From a virus: a stretch of 22,544 nucleotides of DNA. The stretch covers positions 1-22,544 of IMG/VR virus record IMGVR_UViG_3300037882_000774; one strand, 5' to 3'. Shown here piece by piece: positions 10,977-15,470 of this stretch (the stretch's first letter is position 1; each line of letters opens with the position of its first letter). The translations under genes and the position numbers were made by a program. Under the pieces are notes generated by a model. That model did not search any database. It had not been told where the DNA came from and saw only the letters and a list, made by a program, of their open reading frames with translations.

Positions 10977-12566
10977 ATGCAATTCGATCTTGACATTCGG
11001 CCCCCGACCCAACGGGCAATCGGCGGCGGCCTTGAGGGTGCTGAACGAACAAGCCGCGAGACCTTCGCATGGCGCCCCCCGATCATCTCGCCTGACCGAC
11101 AAATCAATCCGGTCAAGGAAGAGGCTGACGCGCGAGGGCGCGACTCGGTGCAGAACGACGGCTTTGCGACAGGTGCTGTACACACCCATCGGGACAGCAT
11201 TGTCGGCTCGCAATATCGATTGAACGCTCAACCCGACTTCGAACTGCTGGGTGCAGATCAAGCGTGGGCCGACGAGTTCCAACGGGTCGTCGAGAGTCGC
11301 TTCAACCTCCTGGCCGACAGCGATGAATGCTGGCTCGATGCCTCGCGCAAGATGAACCTGACCGAGATGGTTCGCCTTGCCGTTGGTGGTTTCCTCTTCA
11401 CAGGTGAAGTGCTGGGCACCGTCGAATGGCTGCGTTCAAGTGAGCGCCCATTCGCCACTGCGATCCAGATGATCAGCCCGAGCCGGCTGAGCAATCCCAA
11501 CGGAGTTGCCGACGATCGCTACTTGCGTCGAGGCGTGACGCGCAACATCTTCGGTGAGCCTCTTTCATACTCCATTCAGGTGGCGCATCCGACAGATCGC
11601 TACATCGACATGGAAAACTTGCGTTGGCGCGAGGTGCCTGCGCGCAAGCCATGGGGTCGTCGGCAAGTGCTGCACATCTATGACCCGCTACAGCCGGACC
11701 AGACGCGCGGCGTGGCCGACATGGTGTCCGTGCTCAAGCAGATGCGGATGACCAAGAAGTTCCAAGACATCGTGCTGCAAAGCGCCGTGGTGAATGCCAC
11801 GTATGCGGCTGCGATTGAATCGGAACTTCCCCGCGAGGTGATCTTCGGCGCAATGGGTGCAGGTCAAGCAGGCTTCGGCGAGATGCTCGGGCAGTACATG
11901 ACATCGCTGTCGGCCTACGTTGGCGGGTCGAACAACATCGCCATCGACGGGGTGAAGATGCCCCATCTGTTCCCCGGAACCAAGTTGTCCTTGAAGCCGA
12001 TGGGCACGCCGGGCGGCGTCGGTACGGATTTCGACTCGGCCCTCATGCGGCACACCGCGGCAGGGCTCGGCATGTCATATGAAGAGTTCTCTCGGGACTT
12101 CTCCAAGACGAACTATTCGTCGGCCCGAGCTTCCATGGGGCAGACCTTCAAGTTCACGCAAGGCCGCAAGAAGGTCGTGGCCGACAAGATGGCAACAATG
12201 ATCTATCACCTCGTGCTTGAGGAAGAGATCAACGCCAAGAATGTTCCGCTGCCCAAGGGCTTCACGATTGACACGTACTACAGTGATCCTGTGATGCGTG
12301 AAGCGATCGGTGCATGTGATTGGATCGGTGCGTCTCGCGGGCAGATCGACGAACTGAAAGAGACGCAAGCCGCAATCATGCGGATCAACAGCGGGCTTTC
12401 AACCTGGGAAGCCGAGTGCGCTCGCCTGGGTGGCGACTGGCGTCGTCTGTTCAAGCAACAGGCCCGTGAGCGTCGCATGCAAGAAGAATTGAATCTTGAA
12501 TTCTCGCAAGATGCCAAGCAGCCTGGCGCGAATGACGCGAAGAACACCATGGACTCGAACAACTGA
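10977..12566 (+). CDS. Portal protein (lambda gpB family)
   Basis: This 529-residue protein resembles lambda-type portals. Supporting segments are the N-terminal ETFAWRPPIISPD, the RGRDSVQNDGFATGAVHTHRDSIVGSQ stretch (near residues 53-80), FTGEVLGTVEW, the wing/stem region with QPDQTRGVADMVSVLKQMR, and the crown-side region with YEEFSRDFSKTNYSSARAS. Portals form a dodecameric ring at one capsid vertex through which the terminase pumps DNA and to which gpW binds. Lambda gpB has 533 residues, almost the same length. ATG 10977 lies two bases after the gpW stop without a strong Shine-Dalgarno, so reinitiation from gpW is likely. The charged C-terminus ends with a QPGANDAKNT-like tail of low complexity. 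Confidence 0.93.
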   Translation: MQFDLDIRPPTQRAIGGGLEGAERTSRETFAWRPPIISPDRQINPVKEEADARGRDSVQNDGFATGAVHTHRDSIVGSQYRLNAQPDFELLGADQAWADEFQRVVESRFNLLADSDECWLDASRKMNLTEMVRLAVGGFLFTGEVLGTVEWLRSSERPFATAIQMISPSRLSNPNGVADDRYLRRGVTRNIFGEPLSYSIQVAHPTDRYIDMENLRWREVPARKPWGRRQVLHIYDPLQPDQTRGVADMVSVLKQMRMTKKFQDIVLQSAVVNATYAAAIESELPREVIFGAMGAGQAGFGEMLGQYMTSLSAYVGGSNNIAIDGVKMPHLFPGTKLSLKPMGTPGGVGTDFDSALMRHTAAGLGMSYEEFSRDFSKTNYSSARASMGQTFKFTQGRKKVVADKMATMIYHLVLEEEINAKNVPLPKGFTIDTYYSDPVMREAIGACDWIGASRGQIDELKETQAAIMRINSGLSTWEAECARLGGDWRRLFKQQARERRMQEELNLEFSQDAKQPGANDAKNTMDSNN

Positions 12567-12581
12567 TCAAAGGGGATAGAC

Positions 12582-12707
12582 ATGGGAATCATTCGAGAAC
12601 TCATTCAGGCGATTCGTGAATTGACGGCTGAGATCAGGCTGCTTCGACAGAAGACATACCCCGAAGTACAGGGCGGGGGCGGGGGTGGCCCTGCACCTGT
12701 GAAGTGA
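12582..12707 (+). CDS. Tiny unknown protein with Gly-rich tail (41 aa)
   Basis: ATG 12582 opens a 41-residue ORF that begins MGIIRELIQAIRELTAEI and ends in a run of six Gly followed by PAPVK. The first 24 residues form one amphipathic, heptad-like helix (I, L, I, L, I and L on one face). Support for translation is a GGGGAT ribosome binding site 6 bases before the ATG, its position 15 bases after the portal stop, and the next gene starting three bases after its own stop. It has no membrane span and no family I recognise. It could be a helix-mediated adaptor or assembly peptide; no function is assigned. Confidence 0.6.
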   Translation: MGIIRELIQAIRELTAEIRLLRQKTYPEVQGGGGGGPAPVK

Positions 12708-12710
12708 CCG

Positions 12711-12917
12711 ATGGAAGACAAAGACCCGCCGAACTCAAAACCATGGACGGATTCAGATAAGGCGGATCTGGAATCTCTCCTACAGGAAAGGCGGCATCGC
12801 AAATGGCTAGCGGACAGCATGATGCAGTGGGCGAAATGGGTGGCCGCGATAGCTCTTGGGGCTACAGTGGTGTGGGACTGGATCGCCAAGATCATCAAAC
12901 AAGCTGGCACGCCATGA
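12711..12917 (+). CDS. Small single-span membrane protein (68 aa)
   Basis: This 68-residue protein has a polar N-terminal helix (WTDSDKADLESLLQERRHRKW, residues 12-32) rich in charge. A single membrane segment follows at roughly residues 40-62 (WAKWVAAIALGATVVWDWIAKII), bounded by Trp residues, with a short tail. Positive residues before the span suggest the N-terminus stays in the cytoplasm. The size and topology fit a holin-like or accessory membrane protein of phage, but no holin family is recognisable. ATG 12711 lies three bases after the previous stop. The stop overlaps the next membrane-protein gene (ATGA at 12914-12917), so the two are probably coupled. Confidence 0.7.
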   Translation: MEDKDPPNSKPWTDSDKADLESLLQERRHRKWLADSMMQWAKWVAAIALGATVVWDWIAKIIKQAGTP

Positions 12918-13375
12918 CCAAACTCTTCGTGAAGATTTCCCAACGCTGGATGTGGCTTGCGAATGTCACCATCCTGTTGTCATTCGTGATCATTGCAACC
13001 TACGCAGCGGATCGGGCCCCGCCGTTCAAAGTGCTGACAATGAATCCATTGCAAGTGGCGCGCGGTGAGACCGCTGTCTTCAAGGCGACTGTGTGGCGTG
13101 ATCCGACTCGGAAATGCTCAGCCGAGTTCTCTCGCTTCATTTTCGATTCAAGTGGTGCGCGGCACGACCTTGGTAAATCGACAGCCACAGCCGAAATGAT
13201 CAGCAGCATGGAGAAAGAAAGTCCAGGCATGCTTACCGTTTCCGTGCAGATCCCGATTGATGTTGCGACAGGGCACGCAAAAATGGTCACTGCGTTGCAG
13301 TATCGGTGCAATAAGGTACATGCTGTATGGCCAATCGAAACCACGACAGAACTACCGTTTACGGTACTGCCATAG
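12914..13375 (+). CDS. Membrane-anchored protein with periplasmic beta domain (153 aa)
   Basis: This 153-residue protein begins with a short basic end and a membrane anchor or uncleaved signal at about residues 11-31 (WMWLANVTILLSFVIIATYAA). The rest is polar and strand-rich: LQVARGETAVFKATVWRD, FSRFIFDSSGARHDL, TVSVQIPIDVATGHAKM and YRCNKVHAVWPIE. It contains two cysteines (Cys68 and Cys132) that could form a disulfide outside the cytoplasm. The strand pattern looks like one Ig-like domain and resembles small membrane-anchored proteins of unknown role in other phages; I cannot name the family. ATG 12914 overlaps the upstream stop (ATGA); the ORF extends 5' but only as antifunctional shadow of that gene. 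It may act in the cell envelope, e.g. lysis or exclusion of other phages. Confidence 0.7.
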   Translation: MTKLFVKISQRWMWLANVTILLSFVIIATYAADRAPPFKVLTMNPLQVARGETAVFKATVWRDPTRKCSAEFSRFIFDSSGARHDLGKSTATAEMISSMEKESPGMLTVSVQIPIDVATGHAKMVTALQYRCNKVHAVWPIETTTELPFTVLP

Positions 13376-13542
13376 GGCTCTTGGCCTTGGGTGCGGCGCT
13401 GCACTACGGGTGGGCGCTGGTGCCACCTGAGCATGCCGCTCAGGTCTGGAATGCCTGTGGAGCGGTAGCCCGTGCCGCATTGATCGTCTTCGTTGTCGCG
13501 CGGCTCATGCACCCGCTTGTCAGGGCTGTGCAACTGTCTTAG
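13327..13542 (+). CDS. Small two-span membrane protein, holin-like (71 aa)
   Basis: This 71-residue protein has two predicted membrane segments, about residues 12-31 (YGTAIGLLALGAALHYGWAL) and 44-61 (CGAVARAALIVFVVARLM), joined by a short polar loop (VPPEHAAQVWN). Charged ends put both termini on the same side. This is the topology of class II holins, but no specific family is recognised and no endolysin is seen in the window. ATG 13327 overlaps the preceding gene by 49 bases in another frame. An AAGG about 10 bases before the ATG supports this start. A role in lysis is inferred only from topology and neighbours. Confidence 0.65.
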   Translation: MANRNHDRTTVYGTAIGLLALGAALHYGWALVPPEHAAQVWNACGAVARAALIVFVVARLMHPLVRAVQLS

Positions 13543-13573
13543 CTTACAGGTGGCAGATCGACGATGACCTGTG

Positions 13574-13708
13574 ATGATGTCTCGCATGAAAGTCATCAAG
13601 ACGCGCCGCTTCCGACTGTGCTTCAAGCATGTCGTGATCACCGCTGTCGCTGTGCTTGTTGCAGTCAGTGCTCTGCTGGAATTGGCCCGCTGGATAGCAA
13701 GTCCGTAG
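13574..13708 (+). CDS. Tiny single-span membrane protein (44 aa)
   Basis: ATG 13574 (or the adjacent ATG 13577) opens a 44-residue ORF: a strongly basic N-terminus (KVIKTRRFRLCFKH, residues 6-19), then one hydrophobic span at about residues 20-35 (VVITAVAVLVAVSALL) and a short tail LARWIASP. The positive-inside pattern predicts a cytoplasmic N-terminus. No strong Shine-Dalgarno is seen, and a competing 55-residue ORF (13564-13731) in another frame is Cys-rich and less protein-like. The membrane-type composition and its place between two other small membrane-protein genes support it, but translation is not certain. It could be a holin partner or antiholin. Confidence 0.45.
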   Translation: MMSRMKVIKTRRFRLCFKHVVITAVAVLVAVSALLELARWIASP

Positions 13709-13720
13709 CGTGGGTGCCCC

Positions 13721-14092
13721 GTGGAGTGTGATGACTCCACAGCGCTGGCATTCCTTGCAGTCATTGCAGTTGCAACTGCAATTGCCTCTTGGCATCTTGT
13801 ACAGCCGATCTATCAAGCTCGATTCATACGCCTCAGAAAAATACTAGAGAGCGTCATGCTTAGGCTTGAAGAGGCTCGCCGCTACGTTGAGCGTGACCGA
13901 GCCATTGAGCAAAAGAAATATGAACGGCAACGCTTTCAGATTCTGACTTCGCGCGAGCGCTTGGCAGAACTTGAAGATCTGTTTAGGTCATACCTCCTGA
14001 CGCAGCAAAGCATTGACGCAATGGCTGCTGCAAATCTCACGAACAGGGCACGTGAGTCGCTTGCAAGTGACTTCGGCGAACTCAGAGATTGA
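13721..14092 (+). CDS. Membrane-anchored coiled-coil protein, spanin-like topology (123 aa)
   Basis: GTG 13721 starts a 123-residue protein with an N-terminal hydrophobic segment at about residues 8-27 (ALAFLAVIAVATAIASWHLV). A long charged helix region follows to about residue 90, rich in Glu, Arg and Leu (LEEARRYVERDRAIEQKKYERQR), and is expected to form a coiled coil. An N-terminal anchor plus coiled coil is the topology of an inner-membrane spanin (Rz type), but no embedded or following lipoprotein gene (Rz1 type) was found, so the assignment is only by shape. The ribosome binding site is weak, and no ATG exists in this frame before the membrane segment. The protease gene begins 76 bases after its stop. 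Confidence 0.6.
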   Translation: MECDDSTALAFLAVIAVATAIASWHLVQPIYQARFIRLRKILESVMLRLEEARRYVERDRAIEQKKYERQRFQILTSRERLAELEDLFRSYLLTQQSIDAMAAANLTNRARESLASDFGELRD

Positions 14093-14168: not shown

Positions 14169-15470
14169 ATGAGTGACCACGCTGCACGATCTGCGCTTTC
14201 GCGAATGCACTTGCGCGAACTCGCCGTGGCTGCCCATTACACGGGCATCGCCTCTGATCTGCGCATGTTGGCAATGGTGAAGTCCGACGAAGCGGAACAA
14301 GCCTTCATGGCTCGCCGAATCGAACTGGTGACAGCCTACGGCATGACCCCTGTTCAACAGACCAAGCCGTTTGCATTCAGCAGTGGCATCGCGGTCATTC
14401 CGGTGCACGGCACGCTGATCAACCGATTCGGCTACTCGTGGAGTTTCGTCACCGGGTACAACTTCATTCGCCAACAGACAGCATTGGCCGGGCAAGATCC
14501 TGACGTTCTCGGCATCGTCTATGACCACAACACCTACGGCGGTGAGGCTGCCGGCTGCTTTGAATGCTCGGCCGATCTGAAGCAACTGGCCAACGGCAAG
14601 CCCACACTTGCCGTCGTTGACAGCAACTCCTACAGTGCGGGCATGGCGTTGGCTGTCGGTGCTGATCAGATTGCAGTCACCCCGAGCGGTGGCGTCGGCT
14701 CGATCGGTGTTGTCGCAATGCATGTCTCCTACGAGAAGATGCTTGAGGACGTTGGACTCAAGGTCACGTTCATTCACGGTGGCGCCCACAAGGTCGACGG
14801 CAATCCGTACGAGGATTTGCCCGATGCGGTGAAGGCCGACATCCAGAAAAGCATTGACGTTTCATACGCAGCTTTCGTCTCTCTCGTGGCCAAGGGCCGC
14901 AAGATGGACGAGAAGGCCGTCCGTGCCACAGAGGCACGCACATTCAGGGCTGAGGACGCGTTGTCTCTCGGCCTGATTGATGCCGTCGCAACGCCTCAAG
15001 AGGCGGTGCGGGCATTCCTGGGCGAGCTATCCGGCTCGAATCCGCAACCACGCAAGAAGGAGGACGCTATGTCCGATGCAGCGAAGCCGGGCGCCGACAA
15101 CAAGGCCGCCCCGGAAGAACTGGCAAAGGCGCAAGCCGATGCCACCAAGGCGGAACGCGCTCGCGTTTCTGGCATCCAGACCTGCGAAGAAGCCAAGGGC
15201 CGCGAAACCCTGGCATCGCACCTGGCGTTCAAGACCGACATGACGGTGGATCAGGCCAAGGAGATCCTTGCCGCTGCGCCCATCACGGCAACCGACCCGA
15301 AGGCCACAGGCGGCAACGTCTTCAAGGAAGCCATGGACAAGGGCACGCACCCGAACGTGGGGGCCGAAGGCGGCGGTCAAGGCGGCGGCAACGGGCAAAG
15401 CGTTTCGTCGCGCATCCTGGCCAACGCGCGACTTGCAGGCGTCACCGGCATCAAGCCGGCGAAGCACTGA
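14169..15470 (+). CDS. S49 family capsid maturation protease (lambda gpC-like), with C-terminal scaffold region
   Basis: This 433-residue protein has the S49 (SppA/SohB-like) serine protease fold of lambda gpC in its first 290 residues. The nucleophile is predicted as Ser156 in NSYSAGMALA. The general base is Lys208 in GGAHKVDGNPYEDLP, 52 residues later, the normal Ser-Lys dyad spacing. GGVGSIGVV (174-182) is the conserved strand and loop between them. Residues 301-433 are Ala/Glu/Lys-rich and correspond to a scaffold domain that is also made separately (see 15069-15470). The enzyme degrades scaffold and trims head proteins inside the prohead. ATG 14169 has AAGG about 7 bases upstream. The frame is open to 14013, but that part overlaps the previous gene and does not resemble the family. 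Confidence 0.92.
   Translation: MSDHAARSALSRMHLRELAVAAHYTGIASDLRMLAMVKSDEAEQAFMARRIELVTAYGMTPVQQTKPFAFSSGIAVIPVHGTLINRFGYSWSFVTGYNFIRQQTALAGQDPDVLGIVYDHNTYGGEAAGCFECSADLKQLANGKPTLAVVDSNSYSAGMALAVGADQIAVTPSGGVGSIGVVAMHVSYEKMLEDVGLKVTFIHGGAHKVDGNPYEDLPDAVKADIQKSIDVSYAAFVSLVAKGRKMDEKAVRATEARTFRAEDALSLGLIDAVATPQEAVRAFLGELSGSNPQPRKKEDAMSDAAKPGADNKAAPEELAKAQADATKAERARVSGIQTCEEAKGRETLASHLAFKTDMTVDQAKEILAAAPITATDPKATGGNVFKEAMDKGTHPNVGAEGGGQGGGNGQSVSSRILANARLAGVTGIKPAKH
15069..15470 (+). CDS. Capsid scaffolding protein, nested in frame in the protease gene (lambda Nu3-like)
   Basis: An internal ATG at 15069 (Met301 of the protease) would produce a 133-residue protein identical to the protease C-terminus. 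It is preceded by AAGGAGG at 15057-15063 with a 5-base spacer, the best Shine-Dalgarno seen in the window, so internal initiation is expected. The product has an acidic/basic helical region rich in Ala, Lys and Glu (PEELAKAQADATKAERARVS), a middle helix TVDQAKEILAA, a Gly-rich linker and a basic C-terminal tail ending GIKPAKH that could bind the capsid protein. Lambda Nu3 is made in exactly this way from the C gene. The scaffold role follows from this arrangement and from the capsid gene downstream; no sequence motif proves it. Confidence 0.85.
   Translation: MSDAAKPGADNKAAPEELAKAQADATKAERARVSGIQTCEEAKGRETLASHLAFKTDMTVDQAKEILAAAPITATDPKATGGNVFKEAMDKGTHPNVGAEGGGQGGGNGQSVSSRILANARLAGVTGIKPAKH

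Follow-up and report, generated by a model that had tools for sequence, protein, structure and literature searches.

A recurrent module of small inner-membrane protein genes at the portal-protease junction of a Casjensviridae-type phage: a candidate accessory of host lysis

Lysis timing sets burst size and phage spread, and apart from holin, endolysin and spanin most phage lysis genes are unknown. In the holin T of phage T4, a single N-terminal span is combined with a periplasmic domain that carries a cysteine pair, which is roughly the layout of one of the proteins (C) described below. T4 RI, an antiholin located in the periplasm, binds to holin T (PMC11413866, PMC8385771). The Mu releasin gp25 (DUF2730) is an accessory membrane protein, and its gene lies close to those for lysis in Mu-like phages (PMC9239132). 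Here we analyzed a group of six small open reading frames (ORFs; A to F) in a 22,544 nt virus fragment (IMGVR_UViG_3300037882_000774; referred to, as a whole, as the window), which carries lambda-type terminase, portal, S49 protease, decoration and major capsid genes.

Layout of the island and its insertion site

The isolate closest to the window virus is Burkholderia phage AH2 (Casjensviridae), with which the window shares the gene order TerL-W-portal-S49 protease-decoration-MCP (identity 64% for the portal and 50% for the protease). Judged by this gene order and homology, the window virus is a Casjensviridae-type phage. The features considered here are as follows.

10977..12566, plus strand: portal gene, lambda B type, upstream border (Pfam Phage_portal_2, E = 1.3e-80; PHROG 21)
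12582..12707, plus strand: gene A, 41 aa, first gene of the module, with a Gly-rich tail (...GGGGGGPAPVK)
12711..12917, plus strand: gene B, 68 aa, predicted cytoplasmic N-terminus and a single C-terminal span
12914..13375, plus strand: gene C, 153 aa, N-terminal anchor and a predicted periplasmic Ig-like domain
13327..13542, plus strand: gene D, 71 aa, a truncated form that retains the first two spans
13527..13574, plus strand: out-of-frame remnant of the former C-terminus of D, CATVLAYRWQIDDDL-stop, beginning at the deletion junction (alignment with contig L004)
13571..13708, plus strand: gene E, 43-45 aa, one span and a basic N-terminus (N-in); ATG start codons at 13574 and 13577
13721..14092, plus strand: ORF F, 123 aa, GTG start, N-terminal span followed by a basic coiled coil
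14169..15470, plus strand: S49-family capsid maturation protease gene (ATG start), downstream border (Pfam Peptidase_S49, E = 6e-33; PHROG 53)
L176:4520-5917, minus strand, on the contig adjoining the window: GH19 endolysin gene of the window phage

The start of C was taken as the ATG that overlaps the stop of B (153 aa); the listed 190-aa ORF uses a longer start. The overlap between neighbouring genes is 4 nt for B and C and 49 nt for C and D, and a GGGGA motif lies a short distance 5' of the gene A ATG. A scan for promoters and terminators within the island yielded no more than shuffled sequence. Hydropathy placed spans at residues 44-62 of B, 13-31 of C, 19-37 of E and 9-27 of F, with two spans in D and none in A; the original prediction of six small ORFs between portal and protease, five of them with spans, was thus borne out by coordinates and hydropathy.

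The portal and protease genes, described originally as directly adjoining in lambda, also adjoin in most relatives: of the 77 for which both genes could be located, 69 have a gap of 150 bp or less; in AH2, phiAxp-2, phiWae15 and SS2019XI nothing was found between them. Other relatives carry inserts of several kinds at this junction, i.e., tail-fibre-like genes together with an integrase (L006), other fibre-like genes (L010, L089/L090 and L091) or a single anchored coiled-coil gene (L053/L054 and L055; L005, which is too short to measure, begins one), and the junction therefore represents an insertion hotspot. As no C homologue was found in the approx. 34 Casjensviridae-like records searched, other than in the window and its sister contig L004, the module was probably acquired horizontally at the junction.

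The tail-fibre-like inserts measure 3-6.7 kb (L006:10587-17268, L010:7625-13044, L090:10803-16838 and L091:10875-13912), and that of L006 ends in a tyrosine-integrase-like gene. The coiled-coil genes are located at L054:10559-10969, L055:10635-10859 and L005:4072-4317; the L054 protein is weakly similar to AH2 gp44 (E = 5e-4), which is encoded beside the AH2 holin.

Conservation of A to E and the truncation of D

Comparison with L004, an IMG/VR contig with a portal 95% identical to that of the window, showed that genes A to E are present there in identical order. Values of dN/dS between the window and L004 (Nei-Gojobori) were 0.12 for A, 0.04 for B, 0.10 for C, 0.12 for D and 0.15 for E, as compared to 0.04 for the portal, and dS across A to E ranged from 0.6 to 1.7; for B and C, dN/dS values of 0.04-0.10 were found at a near-saturated dS of 1.2-1.5. 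The identical order in L004 and the dN/dS values of 0.04-0.15 indicate that A to E are real genes.

ORF F, on the other hand, is absent from L004, where E is followed by approx. 140 nt and then by the protease gene, and no relative of F was found in any sequence fetched (INPHARED single-sequence and IMG/VR pattern searches included). Coding support for F consists of an open frame and weak codon bias, with low GC3 and atypical codon use. F is thus the least certain gene and, on these comparisons, is not part of the conserved module. With a charge of 0 before and 4 after its span, F is predicted to be N-out/C-in, which would place its coiled coil in the cytoplasm; the anchored coiled-coil protein described originally therefore kept its span and its coil, with the coil on the predicted cytoplasmic side and with no relative. 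We also considered F as an i-spanin, given its coiled coil, but rejected this on its predicted C-in topology, and found no sequence support for F as a releasin, a spanin or a relative of AH2 gp44.

Searches with A to F against Pfam, PHROGs and NCBIfam gave nothing significant. Single-sequence searches of INPHARED with window B, C, D and F, and pattern searches of IMG/VR with C, D and F, returned the sister alone or no match.

In L004, the D protein is 136 residues long. In the window, 163 nt of this gene are missing; this deletion shifts the frame, so that D stops at residue 71, and removes the conserved C-terminal half of the protein. Six full-length D proteins conserve H26 Y27 G28, N42, W71, E75 E76, V79, C82, W91, G96, C100 S101, L103, D107 and G112, all of which, except the HYG motif and N42, are located in the lost half; the pattern EE..V.GC...QCS.L..D of this half is missing from window D and intact in L004. 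AlphaFold predicted four helices for L004 D (pLDDT 84) and placed C82 and C100 in the stretch from the end of helix 3 to helix 4; a structure search gave no PDB match under E = 0.6. The first half of D weakly matched the holin phrog_1356 (E = 0.18). The "two-span holin-like" protein of the original prediction hence does have two spans in the window, but represents the remnant of a four-helix protein. A 120-aa protein encoded 5' of the holin gene in the relative G003 resembled D by blastp (E = 8e-4; 1 of 500 shuffles), but was missed by the D family HMM and was rejected as a D homologue.

Relatives of the module and neighbouring lysis genes

The C family surfaced only with a motif pattern, and was thus found by sequence rather than by gene context; a DNA pattern for Y-x-C-N-x5-W-P-I returned 57 stretches, 19 of which encode C-like proteins. 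The 14 members aligned (alignment A6) are 23-82% identical to window C and have 16 invariant residues (D33, R34, P37, G51, R66, C68, R74, D78, G120, A122, Y130, C132, N133, W139, P140 and I141), among them two cysteines (C68 and C132) and those of the motif YxCNxxxxxWPI. AlphaFold predicted, with a pLDDT of 93.6, a helix (residues 2-32) and an Ig-like beta sandwich for C, in accordance with the membrane-anchored Ig-like protein with two Cys proposed from the window alone. The 50 best PDB folds listed by Foldseek for C were generic Ig-like or complement domains only, and the 14 members gave a single weak match in PHROGs. Window C itself has the features that define the family, i.e., an anchor, two invariant Cys, YxCN..WPI and a one-span B directly upstream.

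Relatives of C were found in 11 further sequence groups, i.e., in 12 groups including that of the window (<60% identity). The order A-B-C-D-E (in G066, G061/G070 and G071, where the tail and position of gene A are also repeated) or B-C-D-E (in G068 and G072) recurs in five of these groups; other C loci carry B-C without D and E, and a B-like gene is located 5' of C in nearly all. B was aligned across 8 contigs and E across seven. While HMM E-values for members used in building the HMMs are inflated by construction, independent matches were obtained for C in Rhizobium phage RHph_X3_2 (E = 2e-22) and for B upstream of C in G074 (E = 3e-4). RHph_X3_2, which carries C and small neighbours only, is the sole isolate found with a C-family gene. 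No isolate with the full module, no prophage copy (in two genome-collection scans), no plasmid copy and no homologue of tested function for any module member were found. Overall, comparison of the locus across relatives showed A to E to be conserved in L004 and to recur in unrelated viruses, with F not conserved.

Seven of the 12 groups have a recognised lysis gene no more than approx. 3 kb from the module; against a background roughly assumed to be 20%, the binomial tail is roughly 0.004. The Mu-like G070 shows the order Mor-like activator, holin (phrog_1356, 8e-11), M15 endolysin (phrog_894, 2e-25), Rz (phrog_312, 2e-28), embedded Rz1 (phrog_11621, 8e-21), A to E and terminase genes, with gene A overlapping the Rz stop by ATGA. 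In G071, A to E are directly followed by a phrog_1356 holin. The B-C pair is preceded by a GH19 endolysin and a holin-like gene in G073, by an endolysin (phrog_7) and a holin-like gene in G065, by an amidase in G062 and, with weaker E-values (0.003-0.007), by an endolysin and an Rz/Rz1-like pair in G069; in G073 and G062, an RlpA-like gene follows C. An endolysin (phrog_315) is also found upstream in G074 and, following B and C, in G063/G064 (phrog_315, 2e-39), and in RHph_X3_2 an endolysin (phrog_181, 4e-35) and two small genes precede C. Conversely, tail-fibre-like genes, with no recognised lysis gene, precede the module in G066, G068, G072 and probably G067, and no recognised lysis gene is adjacent in 5 of the 12 groups, the window and its sister among them. 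As relatives of B-C or A-E adjoin endolysin, holin or spanin genes in seven groups, a link to lysis is supported. Linkage does not equal function, however, as the ends of late operons near tail fibre and lysis genes also gather accessory (moron) genes.

The linked endolysins have C-terminal spans in G073, G065, G069 and RHph_X3_2 and lack them in G062, G063, G070 and G074. Two endolysins beside B-C, one GH19 (L203:5706-6851, minus strand) and one of the phrog_7 type (L204:8779-9765, minus strand), have a near-identical C-terminal span and basic tail. The genes directly 3' of C at L203:4147-4485 and L205:5554-5943 (both minus strand) encode secreted RlpA-like proteins, an unusual companion in a lysis operon.

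To locate the lysis genes of the window phage, we used contig G029, which begins with exactly the last 99 bases of the window, as is usual for adjoining contigs from a single assembly. The tape measure frame runs on into G029, and the contig shows collinearity with the sister contig G028; G028 and L004 overlap by exactly 127 bases. From this overlap we infer that G029 is the adjacent contig of the same genome. The endolysin gene of G029 follows the tail genes, approx. 19.6 kb beyond the island and at the usual lysis site of relatives, where G002 carries a holin, a GH19 endolysin and a spanin and G003 a holin and an M15 endolysin. Its product in G029, a GH19 enzyme of 465 residues (phrog_181, E = 7e-64), has two spans at the C-terminus. 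The view that no endolysin is near the island thus held, with none among A to F. As to a complete lysis set elsewhere in the genome, the endolysin was found, but no separate recognised holin, spanin or lipoprotein gene was found beside it on G029, and approx. 20 kb of the genome is unseen if a size of 57-60 kb is taken as for relatives. The coding strand of the window and of G029 has no lipobox ORF of at least 40 aa; the only matches in the window were two antisense ORFs. The AH2 lysozyme, used as a probe, missed the lysis genes of the relatives because the endolysins differ.

The C-terminal YGSSAGS of the window endolysin also ends phrog_1544 holin-like proteins, which would be consistent with an endolysin-holin fusion; the endolysin C-terminus and a phrog_1544-type holin have the motif GSSxGS in common in a weak match (E = 0.06).

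Function of the module and comparison with known systems

The five genes, their order, the selection on them, the conservation of their families, the repeated adjacency to lysis genes and the absence from related genomes were computed directly. A to E are probably a so far undescribed lysis accessory, and we propose with moderate confidence that they move horizontally between phages as a conserved set of genes for small inner-membrane proteins and serve host lysis in an accessory role. A complete lysis cassette is not what the island represents, as it gave no lipoprotein and no significant hydrolase, holin or spanin family match, and the module would be an accessory and not the cassette itself, as G070 carries it besides a complete holin-endolysin-Rz/Rz1 set. 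Of the relocated lysis cassette suggested originally, the link to lysis accordingly survives, without a significant family match to a holin, antiholin or spanin; a spanin within the island is not supported, given the lack of a lipoprotein ORF of at least 40 aa on the coding strand and the predicted topology of F, which is wrong for an i-spanin.

As a possible mechanism, insertion would have occurred at the portal-protease hotspot instead of beside the endolysin, which would stay approx. 20 kb downstream. B (N-in, with a short outside end) and C may act as an inner-membrane pair, in which C would be an N-in anchor with a disulfide-closed Ig-like domain in the periplasm, and D (four helices, two conserved cysteines in a predicted outer loop) and E would complete the complex in some phages. 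Such a complex would most likely control the timing or the site of action of the lysis proteins, in the manner of antiholins or releasins, and would not itself be a holin or spanin. As D has lost half its length, the window module may work without D or may be starting to decay and, with D damaged, it is not fully conserved even in the window. We tentatively put forward, as possible but speculative, the more specific reading that A to E represent a new lysis-control apparatus, i.e., a multi-protein inner-membrane complex with C as a periplasmic Ig-like sensor, which would delay or trigger lysis on an envelope signal (e.g., superinfection), and which many unrelated phages would have added as a unit to otherwise complete cassettes, moving whole and here split from the endolysin.

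Small inner-membrane proteins encoded in late operons are typical of exclusion genes, and the module could instead serve late superinfection exclusion or envelope protection, with the anchored Ig-like protein and its partners blocking DNA entry or a receptor step. Location in an insertion hotspot, patchy distribution and, in G070, presence alongside a complete lysis set would agree with this. We nevertheless consider exclusion rather unlikely; an exclusion module would not be expected to lie repeatedly next to endolysin, holin and spanin genes of several types, and neither the sequence nor the predicted structure of C matched a known exclusion protein. It is quite unlikely that the module makes up for an absent holin and/or outer-membrane disruption step in a phage with only an endolysin at the usual lysis site: the module coexists with a full set in G070 and with endolysin and Rz/Rz1-like genes in G069, no lipoprotein ORF of at least 40 aa is found on the coding strand, and the window endolysin has two C-terminal spans of its own. 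The lack of a separate recognised holin or spanin around this endolysin, where G002 has both, and the weak holin match of the first half of D would favor such a role, but phages without a detectable spanin occur (91 of the 677 surveyed; PMC6139136) and the missing genes could lie in the unseen part of the genome.

The 163-nt frameshifting deletion that strips D of conserved residues, together with an F that has no relative and atypical codon use, could also mean that the module is a decaying passenger in the window phage, with D truncated, F a chance ORF and the genes without present function there. This is very unlikely given the high conservation of B and C in comparison with the sister at near-saturated synonymous divergence; moreover, B-C without D and E is widespread elsewhere, and the deletion may be an assembly error.

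The module is shared by unrelated phages whose endolysins differ in type (GH19, M15, phrog_7 and phrog_315 types, and amidase) and, read as a lysis accessory, would show that a lysis-linked module can sit within a head-gene operon. The family libraries searched contain almost nothing that matches it; it offers a five-gene target for the study of lysis regulation, and YxCN..WPI plus an anchor provides an annotation motif for many hypothetical proteins.

Among known systems, T4 RI and T resemble C in having an anchor and a periplasmic domain with conserved cysteines, and the T4 system and the module are each encoded with lysis functions. However, no sequence match to them was found in Pfam or PHROGs, neither is among the 50 best PDB folds listed for C, and B, D and E have no T4 counterpart. 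The location of the G070 module between Rz/Rz1 and the terminase genes recalls Mu gp25, of which F also has the N-out/C-in layout and the size; on the other hand, no island protein matched DUF2730 (PF10805; hmmscan of A to F against Pfam, E up to 10), F is outside the conserved module, and the module comprises 4-5 proteins. As neither T/RI nor gp25 is a family match, the analogy would be limited to the mode of action. With Rz/Rz1 the module shares an anchored periplasmic protein (C) in lysis operons and overlapping small genes, but the periplasmic part of C is an Ig-like sandwich and not a coiled coil, there is no outer-membrane lipoprotein partner, and true Rz/Rz1 are found alongside the module in G070. 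The AH2 lysis cassette differs in being set after the tail fibre gene, and AH2 has no homologue of A to E; AH2 nonetheless belongs to the same virus group, and its lysozyme is likewise accompanied by small single-span and two-span proteins.
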